From an uncultured Oscillospiraceae bacterium (GTDB lineage Bacteria > Bacillota > Clostridia > Oscillospirales > Oscillospiraceae): a stretch of DNA of 36,257 nt. The notes beneath the pieces are model-generated. The model made no database searches and was not told where the DNA came from. It was given only the letters and a program-made list of their open reading frames with translations. The stretch is taken from assembly GCA_947585425.1 (NCBI GenBank), contig CANPWZ010000018.1, forward strand, positions 1 through 36,257, in the 5' to 3' direction. A program made the translations under genes and the position numbers. Shown piece after piece: positions 30,432 through 34,342 of the stretch (its first letter is position 1; each line of letters starts with the position of its first letter).

Positions 30432-31061
30432 TCACCCCGCCGTGTACGGCGCCAGCTCCAGCCGCACATAATACCCCTGGGGGTGCCGGCACACCGGGCA
30501 CACCTGGGGGGCCGCCGAGGCGTGGACGATCTCGCCGCAGTTGAGGCAGATCCACGCCCGCTCGCCCTCGTCCAGAAACAGCTTTCCCTGCTCCAGCAGA
30601 TCGGCTAACAGGCCGAACCGCTCCCCGTGGGTCTTTTCGATCTCCGCGATCAGCTCGAACTGGTGGCCGATCAGGTCGAAGCCCTCCTCCCTGGCGGCGA
30701 TGGCAAAGCCGGCGTAGTCCGCCCGCCACTCCTGATGCTCGTTGTGCTGGGCCGCCCGGAGGCAGGTCAGGGCGCTGTCCAGCACATCCACCGGGTAGGT
30801 GCCCTCCACCTTGAGGGTCTGTCCCGCGCAGCTCTCCAGCAGGTCCAGGAACACCTTGGCGTGGGCCCGCTCCTGGTCGGCGGTGAACTCAAACACCCGG
30901 GCGATCACCTCCAGCTGCTCCTTCCGCGCCACCGAGGCGGCGAAGGTGTAGCGGTTCCGGGCCTGGCTCTCCCCGGCGAAAGCCCGCATCAGGTTCTCCC
31001 GGGTGCGGCTGGACATGAAATCCACGTTTCCTTTGGTGTAATTCTCATAAGGACTGCTCAT
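30432..31061 (-). CDS. rbr: Rubrerythrin
   Basis: Non-haem di-iron peroxidase protecting anaerobes from hydrogen peroxide. In 209 residues: a ferritin-like four-helix domain (about 15-160) with iron-ligand motifs FAGESQARNRY and ADQERAHAK and the second ligand half GHQFELIAEIEKTHGERF (Glu/His pattern), then a C-terminal rubredoxin-like domain with CLNCG and CPVC (about 168-190). The ATG at 31061 has GGGAGG 7 nt upstream. It is divergent from the dpaA 5' fragment. The promoter is unclear; CATACT near 31092-31097 (minus strand) is a possible -10. Confidence 0.94.
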   Translation of the reverse strand: MSSPYENYTKGNVDFMSSRTRENLMRAFAGESQARNRYTFAASVARKEQLEVIARVFEFTADQERAHAKVFLDLLESCAGQTLKVEGTYPVDVLDSALTCLRAAQHNEHQEWRADYAGFAIAAREEGFDLIGHQFELIAEIEKTHGERFGLLADLLEQGKLFLDEGERAWICLNCGEIVHASAAPQVCPVCRHPQGYYVRLELAPYTAG

Positions 31062-31154: not shown

Positions 31155-31243
31155 GCCCGGTATGTCGGTCATACACTGGGACGATGGCATTATCGCTTCG
31201 GAGGGAGGATTCGGATATGGCGAAAAATATCTGGGTGGTGGGG
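31155..31243 (+). repeat. Left copy of the 89-bp direct repeat (dpaA 5' end)
   Basis: Identical at every base to 33423-33511. It carries the CATACACT -10-like box (31170-31177), the GGAGGGAGG ribosome site and the first nine codons of dpaA (ATG at 31217). The base pairs just outside differ on both sides, so the repeat is exactly bounded. Confidence 0.97.
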
Positions 31244-31672
31244 ACAAGCCCCACGGCCCCGGGCGGCGGAGGCGAAAGCCGAACAAGGGCGGCAAGCCGC
31301 CCGCCGGAGCCGCCCCCGGGCCGGGAGGAGCGAGGGCACAGCCGCCCCGCAGGGGCGGGGCCCGGGAGGGGGAGCCGGGGGAGGCCGCACCGCCGCAAAG
31401 GCGAGGGCGGAGCGGAGCGAGGGCGAGGGCACACAGCCCGAGCCAAGCGGAGCCCGAGCCCAGGCGGCAAGGCCGGGGGGACGGAGCGCGGGCCCAGGGG
31501 TAGGGGCCCCAGGGCACGACGGACCGGCCCCAGCGCCCCGCAGGGCGCGGCCCCGGGGGAGCCCGGGCCCCCGAGCGACGGGCGGCGGCGGCCGAGCCGG
31601 GGACGCGAGGGAGGGACGGGGCAGGGGCCCCGGCCCGAGCCACGGCCACGGGCCGCGCTTGCGCGGCGGTGA
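31217..31672 (+). pseudogene. Orphaned dpaA 5' fragment reading into the element
   Basis: The first nine dpaA codons (MAKNIWVVG) with a full ribosome site run into the GC-extreme region and stay open for 151 codons. The remainder is Gly/Pro/Arg/Ala-rich without protein-like pattern, as expected from a GC-extreme non-coding frame. It is a truncated copy made by the insertion. Confidence 0.7.
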
Positions 31673-31795
31673 GCGGGGAAGCCGCGAACCCCGGCGTTCA
31701 ATGCGGGCCCCTGGGCCCGCGCCGCCGCATACCGCAAACGGCCCGCGCCGCCCTGTGCGCGGGCCATCCGGCCCCGGAGCGGCCCCCCGAGCGGC
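31244..31795. other. GC-extreme, hairpin-rich non-coding stretch (left end of element)
   Basis: About 550 bp with no believable gene on either strand; the frames give only Pro/Arg/Gly/Ala runs. Hairpins include GGC-GAAA-GCC (31271-31280, GNRA loop on the plus strand), GGGCGG-CAAG-CCGCCC (31287-31302) and a 7-bp stem at 31703-31720. Shares the 11-mer AGCCCCACGGC with 32611-32621. It could be a structured RNA, 3' UTR of the small operon, or a recombination site. Confidence 0.5.
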
Positions 31796-31957
31796 CTAAC
31801 GAGGGGAGCCCGACGGGGGCGGCGGCATGAGCCTCTTGCCCTTGTACCGGCGCTTGTACTCCCGCCTCCGCTCCTTCAGCTTGCGGCGTTTCTGGTCCTC
31901 CCAGGTACAGGGTATCTGAAGGTAGACGGTGGCCGCGCCCGGTGTGTATCGCCTCAT
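31796..31957 (-). CDS. 53-residue basic protein, unknown function
   Basis: Starts MRRYTPGAATVYLQIPCTWE and continues with a strongly basic helix (about 21-44, mostly Arg/Lys/Glu with periodic Tyr) and a Pro-rich tail. The ATG at 31957 overlaps the TGA of the RHH gene by 4 nt (ATGA), the same junction as between the two genes upstream. This makes it very likely a real third gene. The basic helix suggests nucleic-acid binding. No family recognised. Confidence 0.65.
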   Translation of the reverse strand: MRRYTPGAATVYLQIPCTWEDQKRRKLKERRREYKRRYKGKRLMPPPPSGSPR

Positions 31958-32325
31958 GAGGTCCCACCTCCTCCCCTGGCGAGCTTTTCCCGGATGGCCT
32001 CAGTCAGCCAGGAATAGACGCTCTGCCCTTCGGCGGCGGCGGCCTCCTTTACCTGGTCTGCCAGCGTCCGGGATACCCTGGCCCCGATGAGAACGCGTGT
32101 TCGATTATCCCGCTTGCGGTCATACTTGTGCTTGGTGTCCCGCCTGGATAAATATACGGCGAGCGCCCCAACCGCCTCCCGCACCTCCGGGGTCTGGGCG
32201 TGGTTTGCAATGGCCCCCAGGTGGTATCGTACCGGGGCGGATAAACATGACACAGTTTGTCTCATTTCCGCCTCCGAAACACGCATATCCTCCCACCTGA
32301 AGGAGCGCTGTTTGCGGTACGTCAT
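31954..32325 (-). CDS. Ribbon-helix-helix domain protein
   Basis: A 123-residue protein. The C-terminal part (about 76-118: TRVLIGARVSRTLADQV, then AAAAEGQSVYSWLTEAI) fits the RHH/CopG-Arc fold, which binds DNA as a dimer and is common in plasmid-mobilisation (MobC-like) and antitoxin proteins. The N-terminal 75 residues include a helical segment (about 15-60) and a basic KHKYDRKRD stretch. It starts by ATGA overlap with the 75-residue gene and ends by ATGA overlap with the 53-residue gene. Likely role: autorepressor or DNA-binding accessory factor of the element. The exact family is uncertain. Confidence 0.75.
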   Translation of the reverse strand: MTYRKQRSFRWEDMRVSEAEMRQTVSCLSAPVRYHLGAIANHAQTPEVREAVGALAVYLSRRDTKHKYDRKRDNRTRVLIGARVSRTLADQVKEAAAAEGQSVYSWLTEAIREKLARGGGGTS

Positions 32326-32549
32326 TCGGCAGAGCTTGCGGCCGGGGATTCCCCGGATACCTTGATTTCAGCGGGTTTGCGGGGCATTTTGTTCGGGGAC
32401 GAAGTCGGCTTTTCCGCTTCCGGGGAACACTCCTGCTCGATAAGGGCGCGGAAATCGTGTCTGGCTTCGGCGATGGCCATGAGCATATCAAAGCAGGCTG
32501 ATTCCAGGTATGTGAGGCGGTACAGCAGGGCTTTTCTGTGTTTTTCCAT
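32322..32549 (-). CDS. 75-residue protein, first gene of the element's small operon
   Basis: Begins MEKHRKALLYRLTYLESACF, giving a long amphipathic helix (about 3-40), followed by a disordered Pro/Ser/Lys-rich tail. A very strong ribosome site, AAAAAAGGAGG, lies 8 nt before the ATG, and a good promoter lies at 32581-32609. No family recognised. Base composition is less GC-rich than the chromosome around it, which supports foreign origin. Confidence 0.7.
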   Translation of the reverse strand: MEKHRKALLYRLTYLESACFDMLMAIAEARHDFRALIEQECSPEAEKPTSSPNKMPRKPAEIKVSGESPAASSAE

Positions 32550-32580
32550 GGGGTTTTCCTCCTTTTTTGGTGATGGAATA

Positions 32581-32609
32581 AGTATACACTGTATTGGATA
32601 TTTATGCAA
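32581..32609 (-). promoter_or_regulatory. Sigma-A promoter of the element's three-gene operon
   Basis: Minus strand TTGCAT (32609-32604), 17-nt spacer, TATACT (32586-32581). Confidence 0.8.
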
Positions 32610-32610
32610 G

Positions 32611-32758
32611 AGCCCCACGGCGGCGGGCGGGCGGACAAGGCCCGGTGCGGGCGGGCGGACCAAGCGGGCCAGCGGCCCGCAGGGTGGCCGGAGGCCACAA
32701 GCCCGCTGAACTTAGCCCTGGGCCCCGCCCGGGCACGGCGGCGGGGGGCGGTGGAGCC
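32611..32758. other. Middle GC-rich stretch with competing hairpins
   Basis: No gene. Perfect hairpins at 32664-32680 (7 bp, AGC loop) and 32684-32698 (6 bp, GGA loop). An outer 7-bp helix (32663-32669 with 32701-32707) would enclose both but excludes the first, so two folds compete. Confidence 0.45.
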
Positions 32759-32780
32759 AAAAGGGGGCGCTCAGCCCCCC
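32759..32780 (-). terminator. Intrinsic terminator overlapping the HNH stop codon
   Basis: On the minus strand a 6-bp all-GC stem (32779-32774 with 32768-32763) whose loop contains the HNH stop UGA, followed by UUUU. Confidence 0.65.
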
Positions 32781-33193
32781 GCTTTCTTCAGGTGTTCCCA
32801 GGCGATTTGTTCTGCTTTGGTGAGCGGCACCTCGCTTGTGTACTTGGGGTGGTTGGTCCAGTCCACCAGCGAGGCGGCGGTGAAGCTCCACGGATTCCAC
32901 AGGAGCCCCTCTGCGGCGTAGAGGTCCGCCAGGTATTCTATGCAGAGCTGGGTGATGTCCTCCGGGGACGGGCGGCCCGGACCCAGGTCCCGGAGGTCTA
33001 TGCCGTGCGCCAGGGCGTGGCAGTCCGAGCAGAGGGTAATCATGTTCATGGGCTTGTCTGCGGGCCCGCCCTGGCCCCGGGGGACGACGTGGTGAATCTG
33101 AAGGTGCCGGGTGTAGTCGCAGAGGGCGCACCTGTATCCATCCCTGCGATAGACCATCTTCCTGAAGGCGTTGCTGAGTTTGTTGCTGGTCAT
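32771..33193 (-). CDS. HNH endonuclease
   Basis: A 140-residue HNH nuclease. Zinc-binding C22-x2-C25 and C55-x2-C58, then the catalytic-site residues H34-H35 (QIHHVV), N50 (MNMITLC) and H59/H63 (CHALAH), form a complete HNH/zinc-finger core. A C-terminal helical region (about 75-140) is family-unknown. GAAAGGAG lies 8 nt before the ATG at 33193, so the gene is well set for translation. It resembles phage- or intron-associated small HNH proteins more than the large RNA-guided (IsrB/IscB) ones, as no RuvC or bridge helix is present. Its target may be the empty insertion site; that is speculation. Confidence 0.85.
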   Translation of the reverse strand: MTSNKLSNAFRKMVYRRDGYRCALCDYTRHLQIHHVVPRGQGGPADKPMNMITLCSDCHALAHGIDLRDLGPGRPSPEDITQLCIEYLADLYAAEGLLWNPWSFTAASLVDWTNHPKYTSEVPLTKAEQIAWEHLKKAGG

Positions 33194-33239
33194 TTTGACC
33201 GCTCCTTTCTGGGCCCTTCTGGCCCGGACTCCCAGTAGC

Positions 33240-33422
33240 ACGGGAAGTCAAGGCCCCGCCGCAAGGCGGGCTTGCGAGGCCCGACAAGGGCCGACGGCCT
33301 TGACCCCGTGATACAATGGGAGGACGGCGGAAGGGCCCGCTCGGAGCATTGCAGGGGGCCGCCAGGACCATTCCCGACGATTGCCCAGGGAACGGCGGCC
33401 CACCCTGTGCCGTAAGGCACAT
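33240..33422. other. Structured right end of the element (possible RNA or recombination site)
   Basis: A three-way junction: a 9-bp closing stem (33247-33255 with 33296-33304) enclosing a GCAA-loop hairpin (33256-33269) and a second hairpin (33278-33292). Then a long imperfect hairpin (33356-33363 with 33394-33401, inner TTCCC/GGGAA 33371-33375 with 33388-33392) and a GTGCC-GTAA-GGCAC hairpin (33407-33420) ending 2 nt before the right repeat. The GNRA loops (GCAA, GTAA) appear only on the plus strand. No gene is seen in it. Confidence 0.5.
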
Positions 33423-33445
33423 GCCCGGTATGTCGGTCATACACT
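33418..33445 (+). promoter_or_regulatory. Candidate mother-cell sporulation promoter of dpaA
   Basis: CATACACT (33438-33445) matches the sigma-E -10 consensus and nearly matches sigma-K (CATAnnnTA); CACA (33418-33421) is 16 nt upstream and suits a sigma-K -35. In the left copy the -10 is kept but the bases at the -35 position are CCCC. Sigma-K control of dipicolinate genes is known in Bacillus. Confidence 0.5.
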
Positions 33446-33511
33446 GGGACGATGGCATTATCGCTTCGGAGGGAGGATTCGGATATGGCGAAAAATATCT
33501 GGGTGGTGGGG
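33423..33511 (+). repeat. Right copy of the 89-bp direct repeat (intact dpaA start)
   Basis: Identical to 31155-31243. Here it continues into the complete dpaA gene. Confidence 0.97.
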
Positions 33512-34342
33512 GGCGATCCCCGCCAGGCGGCTTTGGCCCGTCTGCTGGCCGAGGACGGCCACGGGGTACATACCTATGCCCTGGAACTGGCCGAGGGGGT
33601 CAGGTGCGAGCCGTCCATGGCCGGGGCGGACCGGGCAGACTGCGTGGTGCTGCCCCTGCCCGCCCTGGGGCCGGAGGGCGGCCTCAACGCACCCCTCTCC
33701 GGCAGCTCCCACCCGCTGGAGGAGGTATTGGGCCCCCTGCGCCCGGGACAGCCGGTGTGCGCGGGGATGGTCACAGAGCCCCTGCAGGCCATGGCAGAGG
33801 CGCGGGGCCTGGTGCTGCGGGACTACTTCGCCCGGGAGGAGCTGGCGGTGCTGAACGCCATCCCCACCGCCGAGGGGGCCATCCAGATCGCCATGGAGGA
33901 GCTGCCCGTCACCCTCCACGCGTCCCGGGTGCTGGTGATCGGCTTCGGGCGCCTGGGCCATGCCCTGGTCCCCCGGTTGAGAGGACTGGGCGCCCGCGTC
34001 TGGGTCTCCGCCCGGCGATATGAGCAGCAGGCCGCCGCTGAGAGCATGGGTGCCGGCGTGGAGGGGATGGACCGCCTGCCCGACTGGCTCTGCGGCTACG
34101 ATCTGGTCATCAACACCGTCCCCGCCCCGGTGCTGGGGGTGGAGGAGCTGTCCGCCCTGAAGGAGGGGGCCCTGGTCATCGACCTTGCCTCCCGGCCCGG
34201 CGGGGTGGACATGAAGGCCGCCGCCGCCCTGGGGGTCCGGGTCATCTGGGCCCTGTCCCTCCCCGGCAAGGCGGCCCCCGTCACCTCCGGGCGGTATATC
34301 AAGGATACCGTCTATCATCTGATGGACGAACTGGAGGTCTGA
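33485..34342 (+). CDS. dpaA: Dipicolinate synthase subunit A
   Basis: With DpaB makes dipicolinic acid, the calcium chelator of the spore core, in the mother cell. The 285-residue protein has an N-terminal domain starting MAKNIWVVGGDPRQAALARL, and a Rossmann fold with VLVIGFGRLGHAL (about 148-160) for NAD(P)H. The family-typical AVLNAIPTAEGAIQIAMEE (about 125-143) confirms it. ATG 33485 is preceded by GGAGGGAGG (7-nt spacing), inside the duplicated 89 bp, so the coding sequence is complete. dpaB follows after 4 nt. Confidence 0.94.
   Translation: MAKNIWVVGGDPRQAALARLLAEDGHGVHTYALELAEGVRCEPSMAGADRADCVVLPLPALGPEGGLNAPLSGSSHPLEEVLGPLRPGQPVCAGMVTEPLQAMAEARGLVLRDYFAREELAVLNAIPTAEGAIQIAMEELPVTLHASRVLVIGFGRLGHALVPRLRGLGARVWVSARRYEQQAAAESMGAGVEGMDRLPDWLCGYDLVINTVPAPVLGVEELSALKEGALVIDLASRPGGVDMKAAAALGVRVIWALSLPGKAAPVTSGRYIKDTVYHLMDELEV

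Follow-up and report, generated by a model that had tools for sequence, protein, structure and literature searches.

Organization of the dpaA locus

The window, the whole stretch of 36,257 nt analyzed here, comes from a draft genome of 58 contigs that is 98%-complete. Between the rubrerythrin gene and dpaA lies a unit bounded by two copies of an 89-bp sequence (31155-31243 and 33423-33511), which are identical at 89 of 89 positions and lie 2,268 bp apart from start to start. No other repeated 25-mer diagonal occurs in the 36 kb. The locus contains the following features:

30432-31061, minus strand: rubrerythrin gene (rbr), left neighbor (PF02915)
31158-31165: footprint of 8 bp, CGGTATGT, with the same letters as the terminal 8 bp of the element (33426-33433) and absent from the empty sites of genomes G007 and G004
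31166-31243: stub-side copy of the target duplication, 78 bp, covering the dpaA leader and codons 1-9, identical to 33434-33511; single copy in G007, G004 and G024
31240-31658, minus strand: 419-nt tract whose gene strand contains a single A (first 4 bases are part of the repeat)
31243/31244: Y, the variable end type, set by comparison with relatives
31244-33433, minus strand: element of 2,190 bp with genes on the minus strand, from repeat bounds and empty-site comparison
31796-31957, minus strand: 53-aa basic ORF from the ORF list, with a 4-bp overlap with the RHH gene and no Pfam match
31954-32325, minus strand: RHH/Arc-like protein, 123 aa (several lines of evidence, each weak, all in the same direction)
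32322-32549, minus strand: small ORF (MEKHRK...), with a counterpart (MENSK...) in genome G027, 38% identical
32771-33193, minus strand: gene for a 140-aa HNH nuclease, which might instead start upstream at a GTG (33241), PF01844, E 1.1e-8, with conserved His/Asn/His and Cys pairs
33406-33421, minus strand: terminal hairpin, 6-bp stem TGTGCC/GGCACA, plus-strand loop GTAA, located 12 bp inward from X, with conservation and covariation across the family
33433/33434: X, the mostly fixed end type, set by comparison with relatives
33434-33511: second copy of the duplicated target, continuous with the intact dpaA, identical to the stub copy
33485-34342, plus strand: dpaA, the target gene, intact (PF16924, E 3.5e-23)

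The initial annotation had read the same repeats and unit length from the letters alone, together with an HNH nuclease, a three-gene coupled operon, the lack of a recombinase, and a dpaA gene left whole on the right with a nine-codon stub on the left, and all of these readings held. The coupled genes are the MEKHR-type ORF, the RHH-like gene, whose product we take for a repressor of the element, and the 53-aa ORF, with 4-bp overlaps at 32322-32325 and 31954-31957; the HNH gene is set apart from them, upstream. A Pfam scan of the four ORFs found no recombinase or transposase, no reverse transcriptase was seen in the window element, and no Rfam family matched the locus up to E 1.

A single-copy rbr-dpaA junction lacking the element, proposed earlier as a test, was found in three close relatives (G007, G004 and G024). 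In G007 and G004 the empty site reads GCC followed by CGGTCATACACTGG, and comparison with these sites trims the host duplication to 78 bp (31166-31243 and 33434-33511), a figure that rests on these two genomes, the G024 sequence being different near the duplication boundary. The remaining 11 bp of the repeat consist of GCC plus CGGTATGT; this 8-bp terminus belongs to the element and is found on the rbr side too. A second empty site, at sipL, is seen in four relatives. The same sipL position is occupied by an element in both G027 and G036, with flanking repeats (53 bp and 49 bp, respectively) that are identical within each genome and ∼82% identical between the genomes. Both repeat copies carry genome-specific bases at dpaA and at sipL. 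At these two genes the element entered a known empty site, and one copy of the target was turned into two.

Related elements at other loci

Relatives were collected with an HNH search query, and HNH is present in all members by construction; a first contig scan using a single protein query had given no matches. Contig ends cut 9 of the 33 family loci, and direct repeats of at least 28 bp flanked 22 of the 24 others, compared with 3 of 414 control intervals, a lenient control since their average flanking sequence was shorter than at element loci, and 0 of 45 other HNH loci. No repeat was present in the available sequence of L058, L060 (partial HNH), the nine contig-edge loci, or the later matches L167, L194, L196, L200, L202, L206, L208 and L209, where L194 and L202 probably repeat L028 and L053, which they resemble; overlapping match lists were deduplicated by hand. 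In all, ∼36 insertions have flanking repeats, which are 31-162 bp long at the other loci and differ by 0-3 mismatches within a pair. The elements, mostly from Oscillospiraceae, measure ∼1.0-2.2 kb and encode an HNH protein of ∼100-140 residues and often an RHH-like protein as well, and no recombinase was recognized by eye among the ORFs listed. The window unit is therefore a mobile element, one copy of this family; the single-copy junctions and the related cargo between other repeats elsewhere bear out the earlier reading of a recent mobile-element insertion.

Many insertions lie at gene ends, with targets that include dpaA, sipL, rplL, ychF, etfA, der, rsmI and a tRNA; at sipL and rplL one site is used in two species. 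Position Y falls 7, 0, 1, 10, 2, -4, 28 and 51 nt past the stop codon, and 1 nt past the end of tRNA-Leu at the tRNA target. Tandem arrays were seen at L049, L044 and L169. Two elements of one genome, L043 and L044, are 97% identical over 940 aligned bases, and their flanking repeats are unrelated.

A search with a model of the terminal hairpin for copies lacking HNH gave 12 matches in 20 genomes, 10 of them at known elements, with a model that recovered 9 of 13 element-bearing genomes and missed 4. The two matches with no HNH gene seen were on G036:C131, where a contig end cuts the sequence, and G444:C61, which was weak. A phage origin was considered and rejected: nothing in the phage collection matched at the DNA level, and 14 records matched in the HNH domain only, at <60% identity.

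The two ends of the element

The end upstream of HNH (X) is mostly fixed and bears a covarying hairpin, and the opposite end (Y) is variable; the fixed end is on the 5' side of the HNH strand. With L044 left out of the motif count, a G was found at X in 19 of 22 cases, and the best position at Y was a T in 12 of 21. Covariation in the hairpin was 0.491 vs 0.160, and none of 500 shuffles scored as high. Among three- and four-base loops, 19 of 23 read GNA or GNNA on the bottom strand and none did on the top strand.

Three other signals were sought at the junctions (L044 and L049 left out) and set aside. A palindrome across Y was matched by 573 of 2000 permutations. Although only 1 of 500 permutations gave as good a hairpin at target X, few sites (L040, L059, L030 and L047) exceeded neighboring positions, and the candidate was dropped. 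Direct similarity between element ends and target flanks was weak at best, 15 of 200 permutations being as good in two of the five comparisons.

How the element may insert

The account that we favor, and to which we give about an even chance of being right, is built from the sequence comparisons. HNH would nick or cut the target after the G at X, and the hairpin end, perhaps in a folded single-stranded form, would be joined there. The other side would be closed by repair that copies the target stretch from Y to X again, by way of a second nick or a template switch to the sister copy. Such re-copying would explain why the duplication is long and the target gene left whole; the location at gene ends would follow if insertions that spare the gene survive, and arrays could form because the duplication leaves a fresh X. 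A plain two-nick duplication fits less well, since Y is nearer the gene 3' end than it explains in 7 of 9 cases, by a cut-off picked post hoc. Also against the favored account, HNH is common to the members through the choice of query, some loci have no repeat, the sipL elements of G036 and G027 could be old vertical copies with homogenized repeats, and the A-free tract is not accounted for.

We consider it rather doubtful, while deserving attention, that the element homes as the WHO elements of yeasts do, carrying a copy of a gene end, cutting the gene at X, and having the break repaired from that copy, so that the repeat would reflect donor/recipient gene conservation and no true target duplication would exist. 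Homing of this kind would suit the way Y hugs gene 3' ends, including that of tRNA-Leu, and WHO elements have gene-end fragments and clusters (PMC7282813). At L038, the 3' untranslated region of the rplL copy at the intact gene resembles that of L039 and not that of the stub, which fits homologous homing and counts against the favored account. Repeats only 0-3 mismatches apart, with genome-specific bases common to both copies at dpaA and sipL, speak against such homing; L043 and L044 are nearly identical between unrelated repeats, and insertions at gene starts need no carried gene end.

An RNA-mediated, target-primed insertion using a reverse transcriptase in trans, with strand-specific loss of A as its scar, would offer a reason why one end is mostly fixed and the other variable, and for the asymmetric boundary motif and the A-free tracts. 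We judge it improbable: RVT_1 occurs in only 10 of 26 element-bearing genomes (of the 16 without it, several are incomplete) and not in the window genome, the 26 substitutions between L043 and L044 have no adenine-specific excess, and the fixed end is on the 5' side of the HNH strand.

Two of the three origins put forward initially, a small circle that entered through homologous recombination at the repeat and an integrative element whose integrase was lost, are more improbable still. Tandem arrays are expected from circles, but the family uses many unrelated repeats, the pair L043/L044 shows this for near-identical elements, and the family ORFs listed contain no recombinase recognizable by eye. 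The third origin, a new element, fits best. Excision during sporulation to restore dpaA, as in skin elements, would suit the targets dpaA and, in two genomes, sipL, both sporulation genes; with dpaA already intact and the other named targets (rplL, ychF, etfA, der, rsmI and a tRNA) mostly housekeeping genes, it is hardly credible. An assembly artefact, conceivable in a draft of 58 contigs, has a negligible chance given the same anatomy in ∼36 insertions across many assemblies, including named strains not labeled MAG.

Comparison with known systems

The arrangement fits no transposon type that we can name. To our knowledge, bacterial transposons carry a transposase, integrase or reverse transcriptase, and their target duplications are short or absent. 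The empty dpaA and sipL sites show that the target is duplicated on insertion, and the family's repeats measure 31-162 bp; in IS elements the duplications are shorter, 2-14 bp. Neither a DDE, HUH or serine transposase nor a tyrosine or serine recombinase was found in the four window ORFs scanned or, by eye, among the listed ORFs of relatives.

The closest analogous system is that of the WHO elements (unorthodox homing genetic elements) of Torulaspora and Lachancea yeasts, which likewise place an endonuclease element at a gene end with duplicated gene-end fragments and clusters; WHO proteins fuse an intein with a zinc finger and have FBA1 as their main homing target, and two of five moved copies show a host gene-end duplication (PMC7282813). 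Here too a duplicated gene end lies beside the endonuclease gene. The present elements differ in having HNH in place of an intein-like or zinc-finger endonuclease, many targets, a hairpin end, near-identical repeats and a bacterial host.

Free-standing HNH homing endonuclease genes are alike in that a small HNH, here with intact His/Asn/His and Cys pairs, is the likely selfish gene, and in the use of the same site in different species. That elements at sipL and rplL have X in common is suggestive of homing-like cleavage of their own empty site. Homing endonuclease elements are not known to insert outside cognate alleles or to duplicate their target, whereas this family has long duplications at many unrelated sites and a conserved terminal hairpin.

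Among NCBIfam models, NF040563 (E 6.5e-13, a match under the model's cut-off) comes closest to the HNH domain and points to IscB/OMEGA systems, which include the HNH-only IshB. Only the HNH part (profile positions 181-237 of 314) matched, with no N-terminal PLMP domain, and no Rfam hit for an omega RNA was obtained up to E 1. Non-LTR retrotransposons and group II introns also have one fixed and one variable end, and the HNH profile picks up a group II maturase (6me0, E 5e-4), but no reverse transcriptase was seen in the element, and RVT_1 is lacking in 16 of 26 host genomes, several incomplete.

These elements have perhaps one chance in two of being a new class of bacterial mobile element, with an HNH of ∼100 residues as the sole enzyme, a single-stranded DNA hairpin at one end, duplications of 30-160 bp made by repair synthesis, and the strand-specific A-free tract as a life-cycle part or scar. 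If so, a small HNH nuclease would insert DNA in a different way, with 30-160 bp duplications that leave the target gene whole, and the family might yield a compact tool for inserting DNA and represent in prokaryotes what the WHO elements are in yeasts.

A-free tracts

The region 31240-31658, which was overlooked in the initial annotation, contains one T in 419 bases on the plus strand. Three explanations for such tracts were rejected. As protein, the tracts of L029 and L033 show 24 indels, mostly of 1-2 nt, and base changes spread evenly across the three codon positions; as structured RNA, z was 0.58 and 0.04; and adenine-specific mutagenesis gave no excess among the 26 changes between L043 and L044, both of which have little A-free tract. 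Long tracts without A on the HNH strand occur in half of 26 elements, reach 363 nt, and constitute a separate puzzle.

Insertion at dpaA and length of the target duplication

The initial annotation described perfect 89-bp copies of the dpaA 5' end on either side of a compact element, and these copies are identical, spaced by 2,268 bp, and form the sole repeated 25-mer diagonal in the whole window. Its cargo was also as described: the minus strand between the repeats carries an HNH nuclease gene, a small ORF, an RHH-like gene and a 53-aa ORF. The element is present once in the window genome, which is 98% complete in 58 contigs. When dpaA was searched in 42 same-genus genomes and 29 of the returned loci were compared, the empty junction that a recent insertion predicts was found in G007, G024 and G004, close relatives with flanks 85-92% identical to the window; there a single repeat followed by dpaA adjoins the rubrerythrin flank without any insertion. 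Base-by-base comparison gave GCC joined directly to CGGTCATACACTGG at the empty sites of G007 and G004, versus GCC-CGGTATGT-CGGTCATACACTGG in both window copies, and the host duplication is therefore 78 bp. The additional 8 bp are the element's own end, present at the rubrerythrin junction too (window 31158-31165); this copy at the far junction is perhaps a footprint left by a second, possibly abortive, start or by a second copy since lost.

A family of elements with long direct repeats

An alignment of three HNH proteins, run against genome contigs, matched 37 loci; 33 were counted as family (L028-L060, with titles mostly Oscillospiraceae or Clostridiales) and the remaining 4 are distant. Nine family loci show no repeat and have one flank shorter than 490 bp. 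Around HNH in 22 of the other 24 we found a perfect direct repeat of at least 28 bp, bearing out the expectation of related cargo elsewhere, with repeat-element units of 1.0-2.3 kb; in the two exceptions (L058, L060) HNH was matched in part only. Random intervals of the same contigs had such repeats in 3/414 cases (at least 40 bp, 0/414), and other HNH loci, from 41 viral contigs and 4 genomes, in 0/45. Among lower-scoring HNH proteins, L168, L170 and L171 have repeats of 31, 40 and 72 bp (the last partly simple sequence), L169 is an array, and L167, at a contig edge, has no repeat. Repeats of 35-73 bp were also found at eight more loci (L193, L195, L199, L201, L203, L204, L205, L207); five other non-duplicates (L196, L200, L206, L208, L209) have none within the available sequence. 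With the window and genome G036, about 36 insertions with repeats are known, and tandem repeat-element-repeat-element-repeat arrays occur in L049 (3537-6681), L169 and L044 (2783-4957). That these elements form a mobile family and make long target duplications is well supported. Searches of the open-access PMC library, judged by titles and the beginnings of abstracts, returned no paper announcing such an element.

Because HNH served as the query, every member has it by construction. Counting its own genome, HNH occurred in 4/42 genus, 24/400 family and 8/394 order genomes, at differing cut-offs, and in the class-level set, at another cut-off, in 1/391, its own genome.

Targets and site use

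Many insertion targets are gene ends. In those listed the gene is whole on one side, except in L037, where the repeat misses the stop by 4 nt.

Insertion targets (L030, L034, L041-L044, L047 and L050 left out)
dpaA: window
sipL (PF12673): two species
3' ends: ychF, etfA, rplL, metallophosphoesterase, alanine racemase, FAD-binding protein
5' ends: deaminase (tadA-like), der (EngA), rsmI
Other: tRNA-Leu; a gene without name in L059

In 7/9 of the 3'-end insertions the distance between the variable boundary, Y, and the gene end is at most ~15% of the repeat length (~6e-5 if uniform, with the cut-off chosen afterwards and L037 scored as 0), and this hugging of 3' ends is not required by selection alone.

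The sipL insertions of G027 and G036 occupy the same site, with repeats identical within each genome (53 and 49 bp) and 82% identical between them; since the repeats are genome-specific and relatives have empty sites (G005, G064, G018, G032), these sequences favour either insertion after the two species had separated or loss combined with homogenisation. In one genome, elements L043 and L044 share 97% identity across 940 aligned bases, large indels aside, and have unrelated repeats, suggesting that an element gains its repeats anew wherever it inserts. The rplL ends in L038 (3995-4087, 5912-6004) differ in their 3' untranslated regions, and the copy beside the whole gene looks like that of L039, which points to interspecies transfer.

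Element ends and proposed mechanism

Excluding the L049 array, repeat copies in 22 pairs are 31-162 bp long, with 0-3 mismatches between copies. At X, the mostly fixed boundary upstream of HNH, the last repeat base is G in 19/22; the strongest position at Y is T (12/21). The X end bears a GGYAT-like motif with a hairpin; together these lie 8 nt inside X in 13/22 other elements (by a simple pattern whose L059 match precedes its hairpin) and in the window once X was re-sited, and 17 nt inside in L052 and L054. Compensatory changes were seen at 4/5 hairpin pairs, with covariation of 0.491 versus 0.160 in shuffles, reached in 0/500. In 25 sequences, not all independent, loops on the strand opposite HNH were GNA in 8/8 triloops and GNNA in 11/15 tetraloops; HNH-strand loops were never of these types. 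Two of the 25 sequences have five-base loops. Loops of the GNA/GNNA type stabilise DNA mini-hairpins, and a single-stranded DNA form of the hairpin end is therefore plausible. By eye, the related pairs L052/L054, L040/L050 and L037/L041 agree until near the Y-side end and then diverge.

We infer that HNH cuts at X, that the hairpin end is joined there, and that repair re-copies the target stretch from Y to X. The main rival is homing like that of WHO, yeast elements that also duplicate gene ends (PMC7282813).

The window HNH belongs to PF01844, among NCBIfam profiles the HNH domain of IscB comes closest, and its relatives of solved structure are IscB, McrA and a group II maturase. A crude RHH motif was present in 14/23 elements. 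The window RHH-like protein shares a conserved RHH-like block across eight aligned proteins, with predicted helices at pLDDT 92-95; its structural match to Arc has an rmsd of 0.6 over 36 residues, but the E value is 4.8. Several left ends have, by eye, palindromes between promoter-like boxes, an arrangement that suggests putative autorepression.

A-free tract and other sequences

On the HNH strand, 13/26 elements have an A-free run exceeding 86, the longest A-free or T-free run in 187,609 flank bases, versus 0/26 for T-free runs; A-free exceeded T-free in 24/26. The longest, in L033, is 363 nt, and window 31240-31658 contains a single T among 419 plus-strand bases (one A on the HNH strand). 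Coding sequence was ruled out in L029 and L033, and structured RNA was rejected as folding was no better than in shuffles (window, L033).

In G036, a second element's left end directly follows another gene's stop codon (L184 4270-4452) and is cut by the contig end. The same genome has a 64-bp GC-rich hairpin sequence in two copies 92% alike (L023 11195-11258 and 17229-17292), one adjoining an element, with a similar sequence near the L184 end. In G444, a chain of short palindromes with GATATA-like spacer motifs adjoins a tRNA-Leu gene (L185, ~4500).
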